DNA of 37,776 nt, from contig JAGQMJ010000007.1 of assembly GCA_020428685.1 (NCBI GenBank), positions 1-37,776 on the forward strand, written 5' to 3'. Shown here piece by piece: positions 2,335-34,839 of the stretch. The notes beneath the pieces were generated by a model. The model worked only from the letters and a program-made list of their open reading frames with translations. It did no database searches and was not told the origin of the DNA. Position numbers and translations under genes: made by a program. Origin of the DNA: Candidatus Kaiserbacteria bacterium (GTDB taxonomy: Bacteria > Patescibacteriota > Minisyncoccia > Phycocordibacterales > UBA918). Numbering within the stretch: position 1 is the first letter of the stretch; every line of letters starts with the position of its first letter.

Positions 2335-4677
2335 CTACAACCCTTTTTCTTCAATTCTCAACCCAACATTTGACACTGCTGAAGGCGTCTCAGCCTCAAT
2401 TCGTTTAATCAAATCAAATGGTTCGTTGGCATCATAAACTTCAATTTCGTTGGCAGTCTGTGACACAACATAAACAAACTGACCGTTCAAGGTAAATTCT
2501 GGATGCCAAGAACTTTCACCCGGCACTGGCCTAATAGTCTTTACGATCTCATCTACTCGAGCATCAATTACATAAATTTCGTCATGAAATTCCCCGAAAG
2601 CAGTCTCAGCCCACACGTAAGGATAGGCTGGATCTGGCTGGTAAGAGCGAATAAATAATCCCGGGCCAGATGTCTTGATATATGATACCGGCTTCCAGGT
2701 ATTCATATCAATCGCTGTAATCAGCCCTTCACCAAGAGCTGGCACATACACCTTATCACCCCAAGTCGCTCCTGGACCAGTATGTGGAGTTTCTCCGGTT
2801 ATCACTTCGGTTACTGGTTGCCAAGTATTAGTATCCATCACCCAGACAGTATTAGAACCCATCGAAGCGACAATGTAGAATTTGCCGTCAGCCGACAGGA
2901 AGGCATCATGTAGAGGGGTCGCATTCTCACCAATGTTCCAATGCTTTTCAATTACTGGAAAATCTGGCTTTGAGGTATCAATCACCCAGACACTATTCAA
3001 ATCTTTCAAGGCTGCGATTACTTTGTCTCCAGCTTCCACCATCGCCCCCACCCGCGACTCGACCTCCTCCCCGTCAATCTCGCCGACAGTCGGAATAGTC
3101 TTTAGTACATCCATCGTGACTGGATCTATCATCACCACGTTACCAGGAATATAGTTTCCGACAGCGATGTACTTGCCGTCATCGGTCAGAGCGGTACCAC
3201 GAGAACTATCACCCACTTTAATAGACTTAACCGGCTCTAGGGTGTTGAGATCAATCTTGGTCAGCCAACCATCACGAGCAATCAAAAACATGTAGTTAGC
3301 ATCCGCAGTGTAGACAGAAGTGTGTGGCTGAAAACCAATATCGTGAATACGGCCTAATTCGGTATGTGTCTTGCCATCCATGAAGAGTAATTTCTCAGCG
3401 TCTTTTTCGACTATAACCATAAGTTCATGATTGTCCCAAGAACCAGCTTCTACATACAACTCTCCGTATGGTTTTAATTCAGTCACTGGTTCATCTGGAT
3501 TACCTGACTCCATCGACACTACACCATCATCAATCGCACCTATAAAGAACTTCATTTGCTTATCACTAATCCCTTTGCCATGGTTGTGATGATAGTTTTG
3601 TGAAGCATCTGTTCCGCAATGAAAAGCGGCTGGATGCAACTTAGCCTCATCGGTCATGTCGAATACCAGACCGTCAATCACTAACCAACAGCTCTCCTTG
3701 TTATTAGCGGCAGCAACTTCGTCAGCTGAAAAACCAAGCAGACCAATCTCGTACGATTTCACTCGATCACTGACTCCCTCTGGAGTGATTGTTCTATAAT
3801 TTTCTGTTGTATCGGTACCACAAGCGTAGATGTCTGGGTACTTCTCGGCAGCTGGAGTAGCATCGTACACTCGACCATCAATCGCTACCCAACAATCCTC
3901 AATATTACTGTGCATGGCCACTTCTCTTAGCGTGTAGGTAGTATTTTCTGGCCCACCCTCTACTTCAGCAGCCGCTTCTCCTCCCGTACTTAAGACTGGA
4001 GCCACTTTGTCTTTAGACTGCAGACCATCCATCGCCGATACCCCAAACACTACTGAAAGTGCAATTCCAATCAGGGCAAAACCCTTCAATACGCGCTTAT
4101 TACTCGTAGTGAGAACATTGATGGTCGTTAGGAAAAATAGAATCCCTACCAAAACCACAAACAGAAAATAAGCAGACATGACCAGTGAATAGTCACCTGG
4201 GAAACGGAACATGGCATGATGCAAAATAATAAATACCCAAGACGCGACCGAGACCGCTTCGCTCACCACCAAGTAGGCAGAAAGATTTGATGAAGTCACA
4301 CCCGAGGCTGGGTCGATCGTTGTTTCCCCTACCAACCCTCCTAGCTTTGGCAGATAAAAATACTGGAAAATAAAAGCATTAATTATCATTAAAGTAGCAA
4401 TGGTCATGTCGGCGTAAAAGATACCGATACCAAGCATCGCTTCCGCCGATAGAGTAAACAGACCTACCCCAGAAAATACGTACAGAATTATCCCTACCCA
4501 CACCACCGCACGAGAGTGACGTAAAATTCTAAATTCATCTTTAGAAATTATCCCGTCTCGAACACTAGTAACAAAAAGTAAGTTACTGAGGATTGCTGCC
4601 CCAGCAGCAATCGACAAACCTAGCGAAAAAATCACTAAATAAATCAGGTGCAGATCAAAATATGCTAAAAGTTCCAT
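2335..4677 (-). CDS. Membrane cytochrome b5-like / cytochrome d1-like fusion protein
   Basis: The 780-residue protein has three parts. Residues 8-217 form about six membrane helices with His at 10, 54, 153 and 154. Residues 247-385 hold two cytochrome b5-like repeats (YTLREVAMHS, EDCWVAIDGRVYD; then SCWLVIDGLVFD). Repeat 2 keeps LHP (His348) and a His cluster at 363-366; repeat 1 lacks these. Residues 405-775 form a propeller like the d1-heme domain of NirS: PHTSVYTADANYMFLIARDG (His452), LHDAFLSADGKF (His590), TPHTGPGATW (His632). NirS uses one proximal and two distal histidines with 145 and 42-43 residue gaps; here the gaps are 138 and 42. The FAD dehydrogenase upstream in the same direction may supply electrons. 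Whether it binds heme d1 or reduces nitrite is inference. Confidence 0.75.
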   Translation of the reverse strand: MELLAYFDLHLIYLVIFSLGLSIAAGAAILSNLLFVTSVRDGIISKDEFRILRHSRAVVWVGIILYVFSGVGLFTLSAEAMLGIGIFYADMTIATLMIINAFIFQYFYLPKLGGLVGETTIDPASGVTSSNLSAYLVVSEAVSVASWVFIILHHAMFRFPGDYSLVMSAYFLFVVLVGILFFLTTINVLTTSNKRVLKGFALIGIALSVVFGVSAMDGLQSKDKVAPVLSTGGEAAAEVEGGPENTTYTLREVAMHSNIEDCWVAIDGRVYDATPAAEKYPDIYACGTDTTENYRTITPEGVSDRVKSYEIGLLGFSADEVAAANNKESCWLVIDGLVFDMTDEAKLHPAAFHCGTDASQNYHHNHGKGISDKQMKFFIGAIDDGVVSMESGNPDEPVTELKPYGELYVEAGSWDNHELMVIVEKDAEKLLFMDGKTHTELGRIHDIGFQPHTSVYTADANYMFLIARDGWLTKIDLNTLEPVKSIKVGDSSRGTALTDDGKYIAVGNYIPGNVVMIDPVTMDVLKTIPTVGEIDGEEVESRVGAMVEAGDKVIAALKDLNSVWVIDTSKPDFPVIEKHWNIGENATPLHDAFLSADGKFYIVASMGSNTVWVMDTNTWQPVTEVITGETPHTGPGATWGDKVYVPALGEGLITAIDMNTWKPVSYIKTSGPGLFIRSYQPDPAYPYVWAETAFGEFHDEIYVIDARVDEIVKTIRPVPGESSWHPEFTLNGQFVYVVSQTANEIEVYDANEPFDLIKRIEAETPSAVSNVGLRIEEKGL

Positions 4678-4748: not shown

Positions 4749-6395
4749 TTAATCTTTAGCCTCCTTTTTAATCGAAGCAAACAAAAGCTCCATATCACCA
4801 TCGACTTTTTTGTGCGGATTGAAGATTCTGTCGGGGTCAAAGGTGTTTTTGACCTCAGCAAAAACCTGCAACATATCGGCGGAAAACATTTGGTCTAGGA
4901 ACGGAGTGCGAATCAAGCCATCGTTGTGTTCACCAGTGATAGACCCTCCGTACTCGCCCACCAGAGCATAGACTCGTTTTGAAAGATCTCGGATAATCTC
5001 GATAAAATCGGGTCTAGAATAATCCATCAACGGGATAATATGAAAATTTCCGTCACCAATGTGACCAGCGATGGTAAACACTAATTTGTAATCGGCCATG
5101 ATGGCGTAAAGCTTTGGTAAAAATTCTGGCAATCTTTCTGGACGGACCGAGATATCATCGATAAATGGCGCAGTGTGTTTGCCGTGGACATTTTCGCGCA
5201 ACAACTTAAAGCTCTCGCGGCGGATCGTCCAGAATTTTTCGCCTTCTTTTTGCGACTTGGTCACGTGAGTAGATACTTTATACGAAGCCTGCACCGACGC
5301 CTCGGCTCTGTCTGCCGCTGCGACCACTTCTGCTTCAGAGTCTCCAGTAAACTCGGCCATCAAAACTAACTTGGGAATACCCCCAGTGAGAATCATTTTT
5401 ACCTCGGGCAAAAAATCCATCATCAACTTGAAAGGATTACCTCCGAGCTTCTTCAGTAGCTTAGGGAAAATCCGCAACATAATACCGAAGGTTTTGTCAT
5501 CGTATGATTCAAAACTTTCGGGCTTTTCTTTAAGCACTGTATTTACCAAATCCCCCAGCTCGCTCATGTTGCTCTCACGCAAAAACATTACCATCATACG
5601 TGCGTGTTTTTTGGGCTTGATTAAGCCAAAGGTAATCTCAGTTATTAATCCGAGCGTCCCCTGCGAACCAACAAACAATTGCGTCAGGTCGAAAGTGTCT
5701 GAGGCTTCATCCCACACATTCCAAATATTGTATCCGGCAGAATTTTTGGAAACGGTCGGTTTTTCATTCTTAATCAACTCAATTTGTTCGTGGATAATCC
5801 AATCTATATCTCGGTATAATTTTCCTTCAAAACCATCGAGTGACTTTTTTTCTTCCAGTTCTGCTCGCGATAGTTTTTTGAATTCATATTCATTACCGTC
5901 ACTCAGCACCACCTTAAGCGCTCGTACCCACTTTTCGGTTTTTCCATAAGTGAGAGATTTTTCTCCAGCGGAGTTGTTGGCTACCATGCCGCCCATCGCG
6001 TTTAATTCTTTTGACGCTGTATAAGACGGCAGTATCGCGTCGTGTTTTAGAGTTTCAACTTCAAAATCTCGGTAAAAGACTCCTGGCTGTGTCACAGCCT
6101 GCTCTCCGTCAACAGACAGTATTTTGTTGAAGTGTTCTGTCATGCTGACCACTACCGAATCCGTCAGCGGCCCCCCGGACATGTCTGTCCCAGCGGCCCG
6201 CGCAGTAAGACTGACACCCGGATTATTTTTAGCAAAGCCGACCAACGCTTTGATGTCCGCCACACTCTTTGGCATCACCACACAGGCAGGCTGAATATGG
6301 AACAAACTAGTATCTTCACTACATTCCTCTATCTTTAGACCGTCAGTCACCACTTCCCCAGAGAATACGCCTTCTAATTCTTTCTTATAATCCAT
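4749..6395 (-). CDS. FAD-linked oxidase, GlcD/D-lactate dehydrogenase family
   Basis: The 548-residue protein has the FAD_binding_4 fold at 35-260, with the phosphate-binding RAAGTDMSGG at 66-75 and GGMVANNSAGEKS near 135-147. The FAD-oxidase C-terminal domain has AGHIGDGNFH (443-452), GEHNDG (488-493; usually GEHGDG) and FDPDRIFNPHK (519-529). These enzymes oxidise 2-hydroxy acids such as D-lactate or glycolate and pass electrons to quinone or cytochromes. There is no C-terminal iron-sulfur domain of the long DLD type, so an external acceptor is needed. The next gene, 71 bases downstream, is the b5-d1 membrane protein, a plausible partner. Exact substrate is unknown. Confidence 0.85.
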   Translation of the reverse strand: MDYKKELEGVFSGEVVTDGLKIEECSEDTSLFHIQPACVVMPKSVADIKALVGFAKNNPGVSLTARAAGTDMSGGPLTDSVVVSMTEHFNKILSVDGEQAVTQPGVFYRDFEVETLKHDAILPSYTASKELNAMGGMVANNSAGEKSLTYGKTEKWVRALKVVLSDGNEYEFKKLSRAELEEKKSLDGFEGKLYRDIDWIIHEQIELIKNEKPTVSKNSAGYNIWNVWDEASDTFDLTQLFVGSQGTLGLITEITFGLIKPKKHARMMVMFLRESNMSELGDLVNTVLKEKPESFESYDDKTFGIMLRIFPKLLKKLGGNPFKLMMDFLPEVKMILTGGIPKLVLMAEFTGDSEAEVVAAADRAEASVQASYKVSTHVTKSQKEGEKFWTIRRESFKLLRENVHGKHTAPFIDDISVRPERLPEFLPKLYAIMADYKLVFTIAGHIGDGNFHIIPLMDYSRPDFIEIIRDLSKRVYALVGEYGGSITGEHNDGLIRTPFLDQMFSADMLQVFAEVKNTFDPDRIFNPHKKVDGDMELLFASIKKEAKD

Positions 6396-8748: not shown

Positions 8749-11256
8749 TTACTGCAAATTATTAATAATCACTTCAATAGATCTAACATCATTACCATCA
8801 ATTATACCCTTTCGCTCTAGTTTCTTTAGATTCAATAAGACTAACTTGAGCGCTCTAGCCTCTAATCTCACAAACACTTTTTTCTTTTGAGATTTTTTGG
8901 CAAAGAGTTCTGCTAAACCCACTTTCAATAATATTTTCTTTTCTTGTTGCTTTGTAAGCTTTAAATCTTTGACGGCTATTCTTAAATCACCGTAATTATA
9001 AACAACTTCTGGTTCAAGAATTATCTCGCCGTTCAAAGACTGTATTAAGTCAATTTCGCCATCACCATCTTGGTCGGTTTCTAGTGGGCTGTATTCACCA
9101 TCCTTAACAGAGAATTCTGCTGTCATACCCACACTAGTTGTGGAGTTTTTTAGTATTGATATTTGCACTTGCTTACCAGATTCATCAATCTCGTCTACAC
9201 TTAACGAATAAATACCATCATCAACCCCAGTTACTTTTACATTAACATTCACCTCACTTGGTAATACCAAGAATTTGCTACCGCCAAGTTCGAAATATTG
9301 TGCATTATATATCTCTTCTTTAATCTCACCACCAATCATACCAACCTGTCTTCCATTATCATCAACAGCAAGCAAGGAAACCGGCGAAAAAGCGGCAATG
9401 ATTCTGTACCGACTAGATACCCCAGTGTACTCAGGAACTATTATTGAATCGCTGAGATAGGGATACTTAATAACTGATCCAATAAAATCTTGCACTGGTC
9501 CACTCTCTGTCAGATTTGCGTGCGTTTTAGGTTTTAAAAATGAAGCATCGTACAAATTCACAACAGCCAAGATCTTATCTCCTTCATACGCTGCTGCAGA
9601 AATTTCTGTGACCGTCTGATCACCATCATTACTCATTATTGGAAAAGGCTTTAGATATGAATGCAAAACACAATCTGGATGACTCTCTTTACAACCATAT
9701 TCTCTATAATCGTAACCTTTTATAGTCGCCAAACCAGTACCGACAACCTCATAGACATCAACTCCTTCTGGCGCACCCCAATTATCTAAGATGCTTTGCC
9801 AACCGATAGTATCCAATAACATCTGAGGGTTCAGTGCAATTGGTTCATTCAGTCCAACCGACCCATCTCTATTATCTAAACTATTGATAAGGAAACTGTG
9901 CAACCTAGCTGAGGAATCAATATCTCCATAAGCGGAAACTGCTTCGGACAACAATGAGCCGTCAGTGGTTATCATTGGTTCAGAAATCTCCTCAAAATAC
10001 TTAGGCGAAGGCAGAAGTGTATAAGCTCCCGCTAAATTTTTAGTTATTTGCCTCACAGTACTGGCTGTAGCTATAATGCCCGAACCTATACTTTGATCAA
10101 GACCGTGCAACATTGAACCTATAGCTTTAGGGGTACCAAGTTGAGGTGTACCTATCATTATCATTTTATCAATCTTTCCTGCCAATTCAGCCTCCCCATA
10201 TTCATAAAGTAACGCCTTAGCAACCAAGCCGCCATTTGAGTGACCAATTAAAGTAACCTTGCCGGTATAAGAATCATCAGCTAAAGCCAACACTTCATCA
10301 AGTAGCTTTTTAGATTCATCTTCATACAACACTTCTTTTGTAGCAACATCAAAAACACTGTACCTCCAATCATACGGGAATGACGCAAAGTCTTTAACAA
10401 CTTCATCTCCCTTTAAATCTTCCAACATCCTAAGAAAACCTTTATAAATATTTCCTTGAGCAACTGGCAATACATTCACCTCATCTATCACATCCTTAGT
10501 ATAAATATCATAAATACTCACCCCTTCATCAGTCATAGCCAACTTTTCTACATCAGCATTCACATTTGGCTCCCAAAGCTGGTTTTCGGTTCCAAACACA
10601 CCTTTTGTATACAACCTACTCGCCTGAATACCGGGCAAAAACAGCACGCTCGAGGCGCCGGCCGGGACTTCTATAGACTCATACTTAATCGTAAATGGCA
10701 CAGCCACAATCTCTACATAATCTTCGTAATAAGCATTTGCCACTTGCGGTTGCAATAATTTAATCAGAAACTGTTTCCAAAGAGGAGTAGCCTCAACTTG
10801 GAGCACTGGGGGTAATTCAAATTTTAAAACGGCTACATACTCACCTTCGACCAATGCATCAATAGCAAAATCACTTCCATTTAGAAAAGTGACTGAGGAA
10901 ACCTGCTCATAGTCATCTCCTACTTTCTGAAAAAAGCTTAGCGGTTCAAAAGAAAAATTACTTCCTTTGTTTATTGAGAAGGTGCCAGTAGCCGTGCCAG
11001 ACTCATTTATTGTGATAACACTATTTTCTGTTACCAGCTGACCACTAAAACCTAAAGTTAGATTGTATGTAAATGGGTTTGGAGAGTCAGCATTAAACGG
11101 ATTGTCGCAATCTTCAATCGGAGAAAATTCCTCAATCGGGCCGTCGCCGTAGTTTACTGTGGTAATGATGTTGCCGCAGGCGGCAAGGGTGTCCGATGCA
11201 GAAATTAAACTAATAAATGCAAACACGCTGACGAAAGCTAGATTGAAAAATTTCAT
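8749..11256 (-). CDS. Secreted LCAT/PGAP1-like alpha/beta-hydrolase (lipase)
   Basis: The 835-residue protein starts with a signal peptide (residues 1-26, ending LAA-C; Cys27 could be a lipobox-like position). Residues 200-590 form the hydrolase: FLPGIQASRLY (oxyanion region), FPYDWRYS, the nucleophile elbow GHSNGG (Ser340), GTPQLGTPKA, then NDGDQTV (Asp544/546) and KTHANL (His579) in the order expected of LCAT-family acyltransferases/lipases. The N-terminal 30-190 is beta-rich. The C-terminal part has DQDGDGEIDL (about 710-720), a calcium-loop pattern, and a basic helical tail. It probably acts on lipids outside the cell, perhaps of a host. It heads an operon with three four-helix membrane proteins. 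Confidence 0.8.
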   Translation of the reverse strand: MKFFNLAFVSVFAFISLISASDTLAACGNIITTVNYGDGPIEEFSPIEDCDNPFNADSPNPFTYNLTLGFSGQLVTENSVITINESGTATGTFSINKGSNFSFEPLSFFQKVGDDYEQVSSVTFLNGSDFAIDALVEGEYVAVLKFELPPVLQVEATPLWKQFLIKLLQPQVANAYYEDYVEIVAVPFTIKYESIEVPAGASSVLFLPGIQASRLYTKGVFGTENQLWEPNVNADVEKLAMTDEGVSIYDIYTKDVIDEVNVLPVAQGNIYKGFLRMLEDLKGDEVVKDFASFPYDWRYSVFDVATKEVLYEDESKKLLDEVLALADDSYTGKVTLIGHSNGGLVAKALLYEYGEAELAGKIDKMIMIGTPQLGTPKAIGSMLHGLDQSIGSGIIATASTVRQITKNLAGAYTLLPSPKYFEEISEPMITTDGSLLSEAVSAYGDIDSSARLHSFLINSLDNRDGSVGLNEPIALNPQMLLDTIGWQSILDNWGAPEGVDVYEVVGTGLATIKGYDYREYGCKESHPDCVLHSYLKPFPIMSNDGDQTVTEISAAAYEGDKILAVVNLYDASFLKPKTHANLTESGPVQDFIGSVIKYPYLSDSIIVPEYTGVSSRYRIIAAFSPVSLLAVDDNGRQVGMIGGEIKEEIYNAQYFELGGSKFLVLPSEVNVNVKVTGVDDGIYSLSVDEIDESGKQVQISILKNSTTSVGMTAEFSVKDGEYSPLETDQDGDGEIDLIQSLNGEIILEPEVVYNYGDLRIAVKDLKLTKQQEKKILLKVGLAELFAKKSQKKKVFVRLEARALKLVLLNLKKLERKGIIDGNDVRSIEVIINNLQ

Positions 11257-31308: not shown

Positions 31309-34300
31309 TTATTGTTTCTGAATTGAGAAAACGAAAGTAAACTCACCAGCCTTCACCTCCTCTCCTTCTGTCTTTGCAAACACTAATTCAGCTGCTCCTA
31401 CTGTCTTTGTGAGCAATTCTTGATGGAGACCAACTGCAGCTTGACCTGCTTCTTCAGTGGCGATGGTGAGGACGATGTTGTCCTGCGGCGCAAGGCCTTC
31501 GGCCTTGCGCCGCCCCTGCACTGCCCGCATCAATTCACGCACCGCCCCTTCGGAGATAAGTTCAGTAGTAAGAGTGGTATCAATTTGGATTGTATCTGCG
31601 GTCAAATATGACTTGGCGTTTAACTCATCCAAAACCACAGACTGTAGCTCCACAGATAATTCTGGACCACTAACACTTTCGATTGGCTGACGCACCTTGA
31701 TACCTGCCTTAGTTCTGGCTTCTAAAGCTGTTGTCACCACATCGCGGACCAGCTTCATCTGCTCAAACACAGACTCATCCACTTCGCCTGCTTCTGGCCA
31801 AGCCGCCAGATGGACACTCTCTGCCTCGTCTTCTTCCTTTACAGCTTGCCACAAATACTCAGCGTAGAAAGGCATGGATGGTGCCATGGTGAGCGCGAGC
31901 GTACGGAGCGTGTAGCGGAGTGTAGCGAGCGCTCGCACTTTGTCATTCACATCTTCCCCCTTCAGTCTTTCTCGACTGCGACGCAAATACCAGACAGACA
32001 AATCATCAATAAAATCAGTCACCGGCCGAGCGGCTTTATCCAGCTCATAGCTTTTAAAGCCTTCGGTAGCTTCAGAAACTAATTGATTGAGTCGAGCGAT
32101 TATCCATCTATCCAACACATTGTCAGAATCTGCTGTGGCTTTAGTTCCGTCAGCAAACATCTCGTACATCGCTAATACATTGTGTAGTCTACCAATATTC
32201 TTGCGCTGTAGTTCCATCACCTCCTTTTCTGAGAAGTTCAAATCCTCCCCTCGCATAATCGGCGAAGTAAGCAAATAGAAACGCATCGCATCAGAACCAG
32301 CTGTATTGGCCATATCTACTGGATCAGGATAATTCTGAAGTGACTTACTCATCTTACGACCATCTTCAGCCAAAACTGTACCGTTCACAATCACATTCTG
32401 ATACGGTGACTTACCAAACAAAGCTGTTCCGAGCACTATCAATGAATAGAACCAACCTCGGGTCTGATCCAAGCCCTCAGCAATAAACTGGGCTGGAAAA
32501 TGTTCTTTCTCGAAATTTTCACTATTTTCGAACGGATAATGATGTTGTCCATACGGCATTGATCCGCTTTCAAACCAGCAGTCAAATACATCTGGTACTC
32601 GCTCCAACTTCACCTCGTTTTCATAGAGCTCGACATTATCAATGTATGGTCGATGGAAATCGAGTTCAAAATTATCATTGTGTGGAATACGCACAAAATC
32701 TAATTTTCTAACCTCCGCATTGTCGAAGTAAATGGTTTCGTGCTGATTATGGAACTCTTCTGCTTGCTCAGGAGTCCTTCCTTCCATTGCCGACTCAAGA
32801 GCAAACAACGGTCCAGCGTGACTGATTATCAAGATATTTTTTCCGGCGCGCTTGGAATCTACATCGTACAAGAACTCGCCCATGCGCACCTGCACATCAC
32901 GACGGTTTTCTGAACCTGGCAGCGGCACCCGATAACGGTCTGTCCAAGTTGGGAATTTTTGATTGTAACTATCCCAATGCTTACCTTCAAATTCATCAGC
33001 GATATCGAGCTCACGAATACGGTCATCTTCTATCACTTCAACACCGCTTAAGGCCGCTGCTACTATTTCGGCTGTAGCGCGTGTTCGTTCAAACCCAGAG
33101 TGGATTATCAGATCAATCTTCCTTTCAGACAGCGCCGTAGCAGCGGCCTTCACCTGCTCCTTCCCAAGCTCAGTCAAACCATCTGCATTATCTTTGTTGC
33201 AACTAATTTCGTGACGAGTGTTGCTCTCACTTTCACCATGTCGCATCAAGAAAAACTGATTGGTGCTTTTAGGCACAAACTCTTGTAGTTCAGCTAAAGA
33301 ACCAAATACTTTGTATTCTTTAGTTTCGGGGTTACGCCAAATCGGCAACGGTGCGCCCCAGTATCGCTGACGGCTAATCGCCCAGTCACGCGCCCCTTCG
33401 AGCCATTTACCAAAACGATTAGTGCCGACATGCTCTGGCACCCAATTCACTTTATTATTTGCTTCCACCAAATCACCTCTAATCTTGGTCACTTCTACAA
33501 ACCACGAGGTAGTCGCGTAGTTCAAAAGTGGAGTCTGACAACGCCAACAATGCGGATAACTGTGAGTAATATTTTCTTTTCTCAAAATCTTACCAGCCGC
33601 TTGCAGAGCCTTGAGGATTTCGATATCGGCGTCCATGTGACCAACGCCAGACTCTTCGTCATCCTTTGGCTTCACTAGTTGTCTAGCAAAATCAGTCACA
33701 AAATCCATAAAGTGACCAGCCTCATCCACATGGTGAACTATCGGCACTCCGTGTTCTTGCGCCAACTTCATATCATCGTCACCATAGGCCGGAGCGATGT
33801 GTACTGCGCCAGTACCTTCTTCACCGATTTCTACATAGTCCGCATGATAGATAGTCCAAGCTTTGTCTCGCCCTTCAAACTTCTGCCCCGCCATATAGGC
33901 AAACGGCGGCTGATACTTTTTACCAATCAGTTCGGTGCCTTTGAATTCTTCTACTATTTCATGCTCTATATCTCCCAGCTGAACCAAACGAGCTTTAGCC
34001 AAAATCGCAAAACCAACCGACTCATCGTCTGCCAGCAGCTTCACCTTCACGTAATCCATTTCTTCATGTACCGCCGCCGCCATATTGCCAGGCAATGTCC
34101 ATGGTGTAGTCGTCCATACGAGCAGACTCGTGTCGGTCGTTGCTCCAGCTTCGTCCAAAAGTGGCAGCTTTACGGTCACTGCAATATCTTTAATGTCTTT
34201 GTAACCTTGATTTACCTCAAAGTTGGATAAGGTTGTCCCACAGCGCGGACAGAGATGCATGCTTTTGAAACCTTCATAAACCAACCCCTTTTCATGGAGA

Positions 34301-34839
34301 GATTTGAAAACCCACCACACACTTTCAGTGTAAGTGCTGTCCATAGTTTTGTAGTCATTTTCCATGTCAGCAAAACGACCCATACGTGGAATAATCCTTC
34401 GCCAGTCATCAGCGTACTCCATTACTGCATCGCGCGCGGCCTCATTAAAATTCTGAATACCGTACTCTTCAATATCACGCTTGGTCGCTAGGCCAAGCTT
34501 CTTTTCTATCAAGTTCTCAAGCGGCAAACCATGGCAATCCCAACCCCACTTACGACGGACGCGATAACCATTCATTGTCCAAAACCTTGGTATCGCGTCC
34601 TTGATAGTACCAGCCAAAATATGTCCGTAGTGCGGCAAACCAGTCGCAAACGGCGGACCATCATAAAATACAAAATCTCCTTTTGCTTCTGCTCCAGCTG
34701 GAGCTTCCAGACTTTTATTAAAAATATCGTTTTGTTCCCAAAGAGCCTGCATTGCCTCTTCGCGCAAAGCGACTTCAGACTTCTCGACTGCGTCTACTGA
34801 CCCACCCTTCTCGTTTTCACGTCCATGTTGTTTGTTCAT
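31309..34839 (-). CDS. ileS: Isoleucyl-tRNA synthetase with inserted histidine-phosphatase domain
   Basis: The 1176-residue protein is a eukaryote-like IleRS: PHYGHILAG is the HIGH motif (about 70), CPRC and CWRCQTP zinc-like pairs, editing-domain segments (LLVWTTTPWTLPGNMA), DLHRPYID-like FHRPYID (about 725), FDCWFESGSMPYGQ, and DGRKMSKSLQNYPDP (KMSKS). Between FGSLAELQEFV and FHRPYID a domain of about 190 residues (roughly 528-715) is inserted. It has every mark of the phosphoglycerate-mutase/histidine-phosphatase superfamily: LMRHGESESN (His534), HSGFERTRATAE, RELDIADEFEGKHW and ISHAGPL. The insert keeps the reading frame. The C-terminal anticodon-binding domain is complete. A GC-rich palindrome lies near the 3' end. 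Confidence 0.93.
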   Translation of the reverse strand: MNKQHGRENEKGGSVDAVEKSEVALREEAMQALWEQNDIFNKSLEAPAGAEAKGDFVFYDGPPFATGLPHYGHILAGTIKDAIPRFWTMNGYRVRRKWGWDCHGLPLENLIEKKLGLATKRDIEEYGIQNFNEAARDAVMEYADDWRRIIPRMGRFADMENDYKTMDSTYTESVWWVFKSLHEKGLVYEGFKSMHLCPRCGTTLSNFEVNQGYKDIKDIAVTVKLPLLDEAGATTDTSLLVWTTTPWTLPGNMAAAVHEEMDYVKVKLLADDESVGFAILAKARLVQLGDIEHEIVEEFKGTELIGKKYQPPFAYMAGQKFEGRDKAWTIYHADYVEIGEEGTGAVHIAPAYGDDDMKLAQEHGVPIVHHVDEAGHFMDFVTDFARQLVKPKDDEESGVGHMDADIEILKALQAAGKILRKENITHSYPHCWRCQTPLLNYATTSWFVEVTKIRGDLVEANNKVNWVPEHVGTNRFGKWLEGARDWAISRQRYWGAPLPIWRNPETKEYKVFGSLAELQEFVPKSTNQFFLMRHGESESNTRHEISCNKDNADGLTELGKEQVKAAATALSERKIDLIIHSGFERTRATAEIVAAALSGVEVIEDDRIRELDIADEFEGKHWDSYNQKFPTWTDRYRVPLPGSENRRDVQVRMGEFLYDVDSKRAGKNILIISHAGPLFALESAMEGRTPEQAEEFHNQHETIYFDNAEVRKLDFVRIPHNDNFELDFHRPYIDNVELYENEVKLERVPDVFDCWFESGSMPYGQHHYPFENSENFEKEHFPAQFIAEGLDQTRGWFYSLIVLGTALFGKSPYQNVIVNGTVLAEDGRKMSKSLQNYPDPVDMANTAGSDAMRFYLLTSPIMRGEDLNFSEKEVMELQRKNIGRLHNVLAMYEMFADGTKATADSDNVLDRWIIARLNQLVSEATEGFKSYELDKAARPVTDFIDDLSVWYLRRSRERLKGEDVNDKVRALATLRYTLRTLALTMAPSMPFYAEYLWQAVKEEDEAESVHLAAWPEAGEVDESVFEQMKLVRDVVTTALEARTKAGIKVRQPIESVSGPELSVELQSVVLDELNAKSYLTADTIQIDTTLTTELISEGAVRELMRAVQGRRKAEGLAPQDNIVLTIATEEAGQAAVGLHQELLTKTVGAAELVFAKTEGEEVKAGEFTFVFSIQKQ
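31485..31513. repeat. Perfect palindrome inside ileS (13-bp arms)
   Basis: GCGGCGCAAGGCC and its exact complement flank a TTC loop (GAA in coding sense). It encodes GRRKAEGLAPQ, the conserved R-K-x-A-G-L region of IleRS. Same loop triplet and GC-rich style as the tatD palindrome at 25530. Confidence 0.8.

Follow-up and report, generated by a model that had tools for sequence, protein, structure and literature searches.

The closest described relatives of the protein considered here are propellers of the heme d1 kind, namely the nitrite reductase NirS, the dihydro-heme d1 dehydrogenase NirN, and NirF. In NirS, His182 is the ligand of heme d1, and His327 and His369 bind nitrite (PMC7278500). 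Patescibacteria are thought ancestrally to have been without electron transport chains (PMC7507113), a Parcubacterium being an exception (PMC5220378). Given that NirK has previously been reported in CPR genomes (PMC7906910), and that nirS annotations occur in metagenome-assembled genomes (MAGs) of Saccharimonadia (PMC12577380), nitrite reduction in this lineage is not wholly unexpected.

The window, that is, the whole 37,776-nucleotide stretch of DNA analysed here, encodes a 780-residue protein (Table 1) that is a new architecture and a new clade among propellers of the already known d1 kind. Pfam matched PF02239 (Cytochrom_D1) to residues 414–771 with 222.8–224.6 bits (E 6e-66) against a gathering cut-off of 25.5, and PF00173 (Cyt-b5) to two stretches (E 5e-16); no cytochrome c family was among the Pfam matches of the protein. 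The leading PDB sequence matches were NirN (E 5e-50), NirF (4e-43) and NirS (8e-19). An AlphaFold model computed from an alignment of 11 relatives has six long helices, two b5-like parts and a propeller, with a mean pLDDT of 74.7 that rises to about 80–90 in the propeller. Structural alignment of this model ranked NirS, NirN and NirF first (Z 42–45, rmsd mostly about 2.4), with unrelated propellers at Z 34 or below, in keeping with an eight-bladed d1-type fold; the near tie between NirS (Z 45) and NirN (Z 43.7) means that the fold cannot choose between these two. An earlier, sequence-only reading of this DNA had proposed a d1-like propeller in which six membrane helices and b5 modules replace the usual cytochrome c domain, and the Pfam match, the model and the fold comparison with NirS, NirN and NirF all bear this out. 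Its own stated alternative, a better match to a non-heme YncE or lactonase propeller, fell away, as these scored 18.5 and 17.8 bits, under their cut-offs and far below PF02239. A lactonase-type N2O reductase was likewise rejected, its match being at the level of repeats (38.8 bits against a cut-off of 700).

Table 1. Positions in the window of the b5–d1 gene, its domains and key codons, and the adjoining dehydrogenase gene
Feature	Coordinates	Strand	Basis or remark
TM6–b5–b5–d1 protein, 780 aa	2335..4677	minus	ATG start
Six transmembrane helices, residues 9–223	4009..4653	minus	AlphaFold helices
b5-like module 1, residues 249–312	3742..3933	minus	Pfam, alignment
b5-like module 2, residues 316–382	3532..3732	minus	axial-ligand positions His348, His366
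Cytochrom_D1 propeller, residues 414–771	2365..3438	minus	PF02239 and structure matches
His452 codon, counterpart of NirS proximal ligand His182	3322..3324	minus	alignment
His590 codon, counterpart of NirS distal His327	2908..2910	minus	alignment
His632 codon, counterpart of NirS distal His369	2782..2784	minus	alignment
FAD-linked 2-hydroxyacid dehydrogenase	4749..6395	minus	PF02913, PF01565; 71 bp upstream of the b5–d1 gene

An assembly chimera or a contaminant was rejected as the origin of the gene, as the same architecture recurs in MAGs obtained independently from several lineages of Paceibacterota and the gene lies, as in its relatives, between a 2-hydroxyacid dehydrogenase gene and ribosomal protein genes. 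The genome is of the Patescibacteria type (808 kb, with relatives in the Paceibacterota), as the reading from sequence had supposed. Neither phage records nor PHROGs gave a match, and a literature search whose coverage left out most subscription papers found no description of a b5–d1 fusion. Elsewhere in the window (31309–34839, minus strand), a class I aminoacyl-tRNA synthetase of the Ile/Val/Leu/Met type carries a histidine phosphatase domain (PF00300, residues 530–700) inserted mid-protein.

The three histidines that had been singled out as those of the NirS site fall column by column in register with the NirS triad in the sequence alignment, and their spacings, 138 and 42 residues against 145 and 42 in NirS, had been given correctly. 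Across an alignment of 11 homologs the triad never varies, and when 13 CPR proteins were lined up with NirS, NirN and NirF sequences taken from denitrification clusters, every one of them had it, including the homolog in G234, a genome from another family of the phylum. At the position of His590 there is His in NirS, Asp in the sampled NirN and Tyr in the sampled NirF, and at the place of His725, which is common to NirN and NirF, NirS has Gln. Six propeller histidines altogether (His438, His445, His452, His590, His632 and His725) are invariant in the 11 homologs. Arg468 aligns with NirS Arg198, NirS Arg372 is replaced by Pro635, and NirS Arg156 by Lys425. Judged from these alignments, the propeller has a d1-type site, and its occupancy by heme d1 is putative.

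Positive charge is concentrated in the loops between helices 1–2, 3–4 and 5–6 of the anchor, which by the positive-inside count predicts that the N-terminus, the b5 modules and the propeller all lie outside. The main clade retains His10, His153 and His154, all predicted to lie close to the outer face; the G234 homolog is without the last two. Because this conserved cluster lies on one face only, no full transmembrane electron path is evident; that a further heme sits at His10 and His153/154 is possible, as a guess. No Foldseek match to the anchor had an E value below 0.3, and the matches from VIA-align, which reached Z 11, are inside the range about which the tool warns for helical bundles. 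In another genome (G013, L066:4077–5450 and 5463–6248), a multicopper-oxidase-like protein is encoded next to a free-standing homolog of this anchor, on the same strand.

As the sequence-only reading had it, candidate heme-ligand histidines are confined to the second b5 module. In module 1 YP replaces HP and the second ligand is missing, which removes both axial histidines; in module 2, whose loop is 5–6 residues shorter, His348 and His366 align with the axial ligands of cytochrome b5 and flavocytochrome b2, and this pair may bind a b5 heme. Each module has a pair of cysteines (Cys330 and Cys354 in module 2), a possible disulfide. Just one b5 module is present in another branch of the family and in the G234 homolog, and it is module 1 that is absent in the single-b5 clade.

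The strongest functional clue, absent from the sequence-only reading, is an FAD-linked dehydrogenase common to the b5–d1 gene and to NirK. The enzyme belongs to the GlcD/D-lactate/D-2-hydroxyglutarate superfamily, its nearest PDB entries being glycolate oxidase and D-lactate dehydrogenases, and close orthologs (63–76% identity) are present in 14 of 38 genomes of the genus, two of them fragmentary. It adjoins the b5–d1 gene in four of the five same-genus carriers (G000, G024, G027 and G030) and is paired with a TM-anchored NirK in G001, G010, G018, G022, G032 and G034, with two small genes separating the pair in G022; neither reductase adjoins it in the remaining four. NirK was called by a score over the NCBI equivalog cut-off of TIGR02376, and its catalytic and copper-ligand motifs align with those of Neisseria AniA. 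A close dehydrogenase is found in 10 of 12 genomes with either reductase versus 4 of 26 others (Fisher p 1e-4, uncorrected for relatedness); for d1 alone the association is marginal (p 0.05), and several carriers have no dehydrogenase adjoining the b5–d1 gene. At a single site, between a membrane-protein gene with DUF1360 and rplJ, the window has the dehydrogenase with d1, G010 and G022 have the dehydrogenase with NirK, and G026 has the dehydrogenase alone.

Strict exclusion between the two reductases, which is true within the genus (d1 in 5 and NirK in 7 of 38 genomes, none with both), fails outside it. Three carriers also have NirK: Azambacteria RBG_16_47_10 (G054), where NirK, split by one assembly frame change, lies directly downstream of the b5–d1 gene, and two with NirK elsewhere in the genome. 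Gene context and this co-occurrence together indicate that the two reductases are linked, not strictly exclusive. Two further genes, for an ArsR-like regulator and a PNPOx-like protein, are direct neighbors of NirK in G002 and G022 and are found close to the d1 gene in G234, and ribonucleotide reductase genes assigned by eye from sequence to the anaerobic type are nearby in G018 and G234. Among other genes around these loci, an LCAT-like lipase/acyltransferase (PF02450) is encoded at 8749–11256 of the window (minus strand) and also stands by the same dehydrogenase locus in G026. In G010, which alone among the listed genomes has a heme-copper oxidase, a malate:quinone-oxidoreductase-like gene and one for a small membrane protein lie upstream of NirK (L058:3522–4943 and 5019–5474).

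The best explanation, to which we give about even chances, is that we have here a nitrite reductase that lies outside the cytoplasm, forms NO and receives its electrons from the dehydrogenase, with cofactor and substrate both presumptive. It would be anchored in the membrane and act as the terminal reductase in a short respiratory chain. The flavin dehydrogenase would oxidize a 2-hydroxyacid of the lactate, glycolate or 2-hydroxyglutarate type, and its electrons would reach b5 module 2 either via the helical anchor, possibly with the help of the further heme suggested above, or via a small carrier. From module 2 they would go on to a d1-type heme, acquired by import and bound in the propeller by His452; there His590 and His632 would hold nitrite in place while it takes up one electron and yields NO. 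The outward topology is that predicted by the positive-inside rule; the electron route, the import of the cofactor and nitrite as the substrate we infer.

Several observations favor this explanation: the PF02239 and fold matches, the conserved NirS triad, a His590 that sets the sampled NirS apart from NirN and NirF, the counterpart of NirS Arg198, a dehydrogenase context held in common with NirK, the predicted location outside, and the lack of both heme-copper oxidase/NOR and cytochrome bd in 12 of 13 carriers examined. On this last observation, any NO that is made would be released or handled otherwise. Counting against the explanation are the loss of the NirS arginines at Pro635 and Lys425, the carriers that have no adjoining dehydrogenase, the three that also have NirK, the marginal association of d1 with the dehydrogenase, and an anchor histidine cluster that is on one face and incomplete in G234. 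A sequence nearest to NirN and NirF, in a clade of its own, and an unexplained cofactor supply count against it as well.

This supply is the first point at which another reading enters. Genes for d1 synthesis, for which the sequence-only reading had proposed searching the rest of the genome, did not turn up: NirDLGH-type proteins were found in none of 38 genus genomes, NirJ in none of 12 carriers (which gave just generic radical SAM matches) and ferrochelatase in none of 13 carriers, all of these being incomplete drafts. The agreement across drafts makes a real absence likely, and the making of d1 by the organism itself, a mark of NirS, is thus without a counterpart here; any tetrapyrrole must then be imported. 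It is conceivable, if somewhat unlikely, that the propeller binds something else on its conserved histidines, whether copper, a tetrapyrrole of the siroheme type or heme b that has been imported, and does a related redox job. The missing d1 and heme synthesis genes would fit such a cofactor, as would the six invariant histidines and a context partner, NirK, that is a copper enzyme, but the propeller keeps the proximal histidine, Arg468 and both distal histidines of NirS in register, as expected of a d1 site, and the weak match to lactonase-type N2O reductase lends such a cofactor no help.

A second reading arises from the phylogeny. In a tree of 25 d1-domain rows that included NirS, NirN and NirF, the CPR domains group together in a clade apart from these (support 99/97) and NirS in a separate one (100/100), and the long branches make the deeper branching order unsafe. 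Over its whole sequence the d1 domain is nearer to NirN and NirF than to NirS. With no cytochrome c domain and a different clade, the protein is outside the NirS family as defined; it likewise departs from NirN, which has its own clade and a cytochrome c domain, and from NirF, a single-domain protein in its own clade. The protein might handle heme d1, as a dehydrogenase, carrier or scavenger resembling NirN or NirF, and not be a reductase itself. The NirN/NirF-type His725 and the adjoining separate reductase, NirK, in Azambacteria are consistent with such a role, yet no other d1-synthesis gene and no NirS to be served turned up in its own genome or in the phylum sample, His590 stands where NirN has Asp and NirF Tyr, and the clade is separate from both, which leaves a d1-handling function rather improbable.

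That oxygen and not nitrite is reduced, for respiration or detoxification, is less probable again: cytochrome cd1 slowly reduces O2 to water, the active site is the same as in that enzyme and 12 of 13 carriers are without heme-copper and bd oxidases, but the gene context is common with a nitrite reductase and the ribonucleotide reductase genes near the G018 and G234 loci are of the anaerobic type as assigned by eye.

The b5–d1 family is real and patchy, and in one scan of a genome collection, made with patterns from the b5 part, is confined to the CPR. Homologs are present in 5 of 38 same-genus genomes, in one further genome of the family and, among Paceibacterota records, under the names Kaiserbacteria, Wolfebacteria, Azambacteria and Elulimicrobium as well as others; among 380 genomes of a phylum sample, the window genome and G234 alone had a strong PF02239 match, the G234 homolog scoring 174 bits. 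A haloarchaeal d1 propeller on the Natrinema thermotolerans plasmid CP031304.1 (L101:5632–7145), unannotated and with a broken reading frame, shares the motifs APHS, TLHDA and PPHPTPGA and suggests by its sequence that d1 propellers of the His590 type extend beyond the CPR. Separately, plasmid p4 of Azospirillum brasilense Sp7 (L103) encodes two Cytochrom_D1 proteins, one NirS-like and one NirN-like, next to NapC/NirT and TcuAB; the 19 kb stretch contains no gene for d1 synthesis.

Returning to nitrite reduction, a broader proposal may be advanced tentatively, and with less confidence than the assignment of the protein itself. With this fourth d1-propeller clade, bacteria that synthesize no heme and no heme d1 may have a complete minimal nitrite-respiring unit, composed of a flavin dehydrogenase and one membrane b5–d1 protein, whose tetrapyrroles would be taken from other cells and which copper NirK could replace or be replaced by. 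If so, some CPR bacteria would not be purely fermentative, and a two-gene module would couple hydroxyacid oxidation to nitrite reduction with release of NO, using heme d1 (or a stand-in) that is acquired, not made. An independent d1 clade would also be a test of the residues that separate nitrite reductase from d1-maturation propellers.

Compared with known systems, the protein is like NirS in its eight-bladed d1 propeller with the proximal and both distal catalytic histidines in register, and unlike it in having six helices and b5 modules in place of a cytochrome c domain, Pro and Lys in place of Arg372 and Arg156, a separate clade, and no d1-synthesis genes found. NirN is the best PDB sequence match and has Arg468, Arg677, Trp689 and His725 in common with it, whereas Asp at the His590 place, a cytochrome c domain and occurrence in d1-synthesis clusters are features of NirN; NirF, the second-best match, is also a d1 propeller and differs in its Tyr at the same place. 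The C1–C2–NirS fusion of Chloroflexi likewise joins an unusual electron-input domain to a NirS propeller (PMC8756737), and its C1 cytochrome is also found paired with NirK (PMC8756737), but its domains are of the cytochrome c type, its propeller is of the NirS clade and it has no TM6–b5 anchor. Flavocytochrome b2 (L-lactate dehydrogenase), whose b5 core aligns with module 2 (E 4.5e-5), is a precedent for cooperation between a b5 module and a flavin dehydrogenase of 2-hydroxyacids; in that enzyme the flavin is FMN and the two are fused, whereas here an FAD enzyme is encoded by a separate gene and the b5 module is fused to a d1 propeller.
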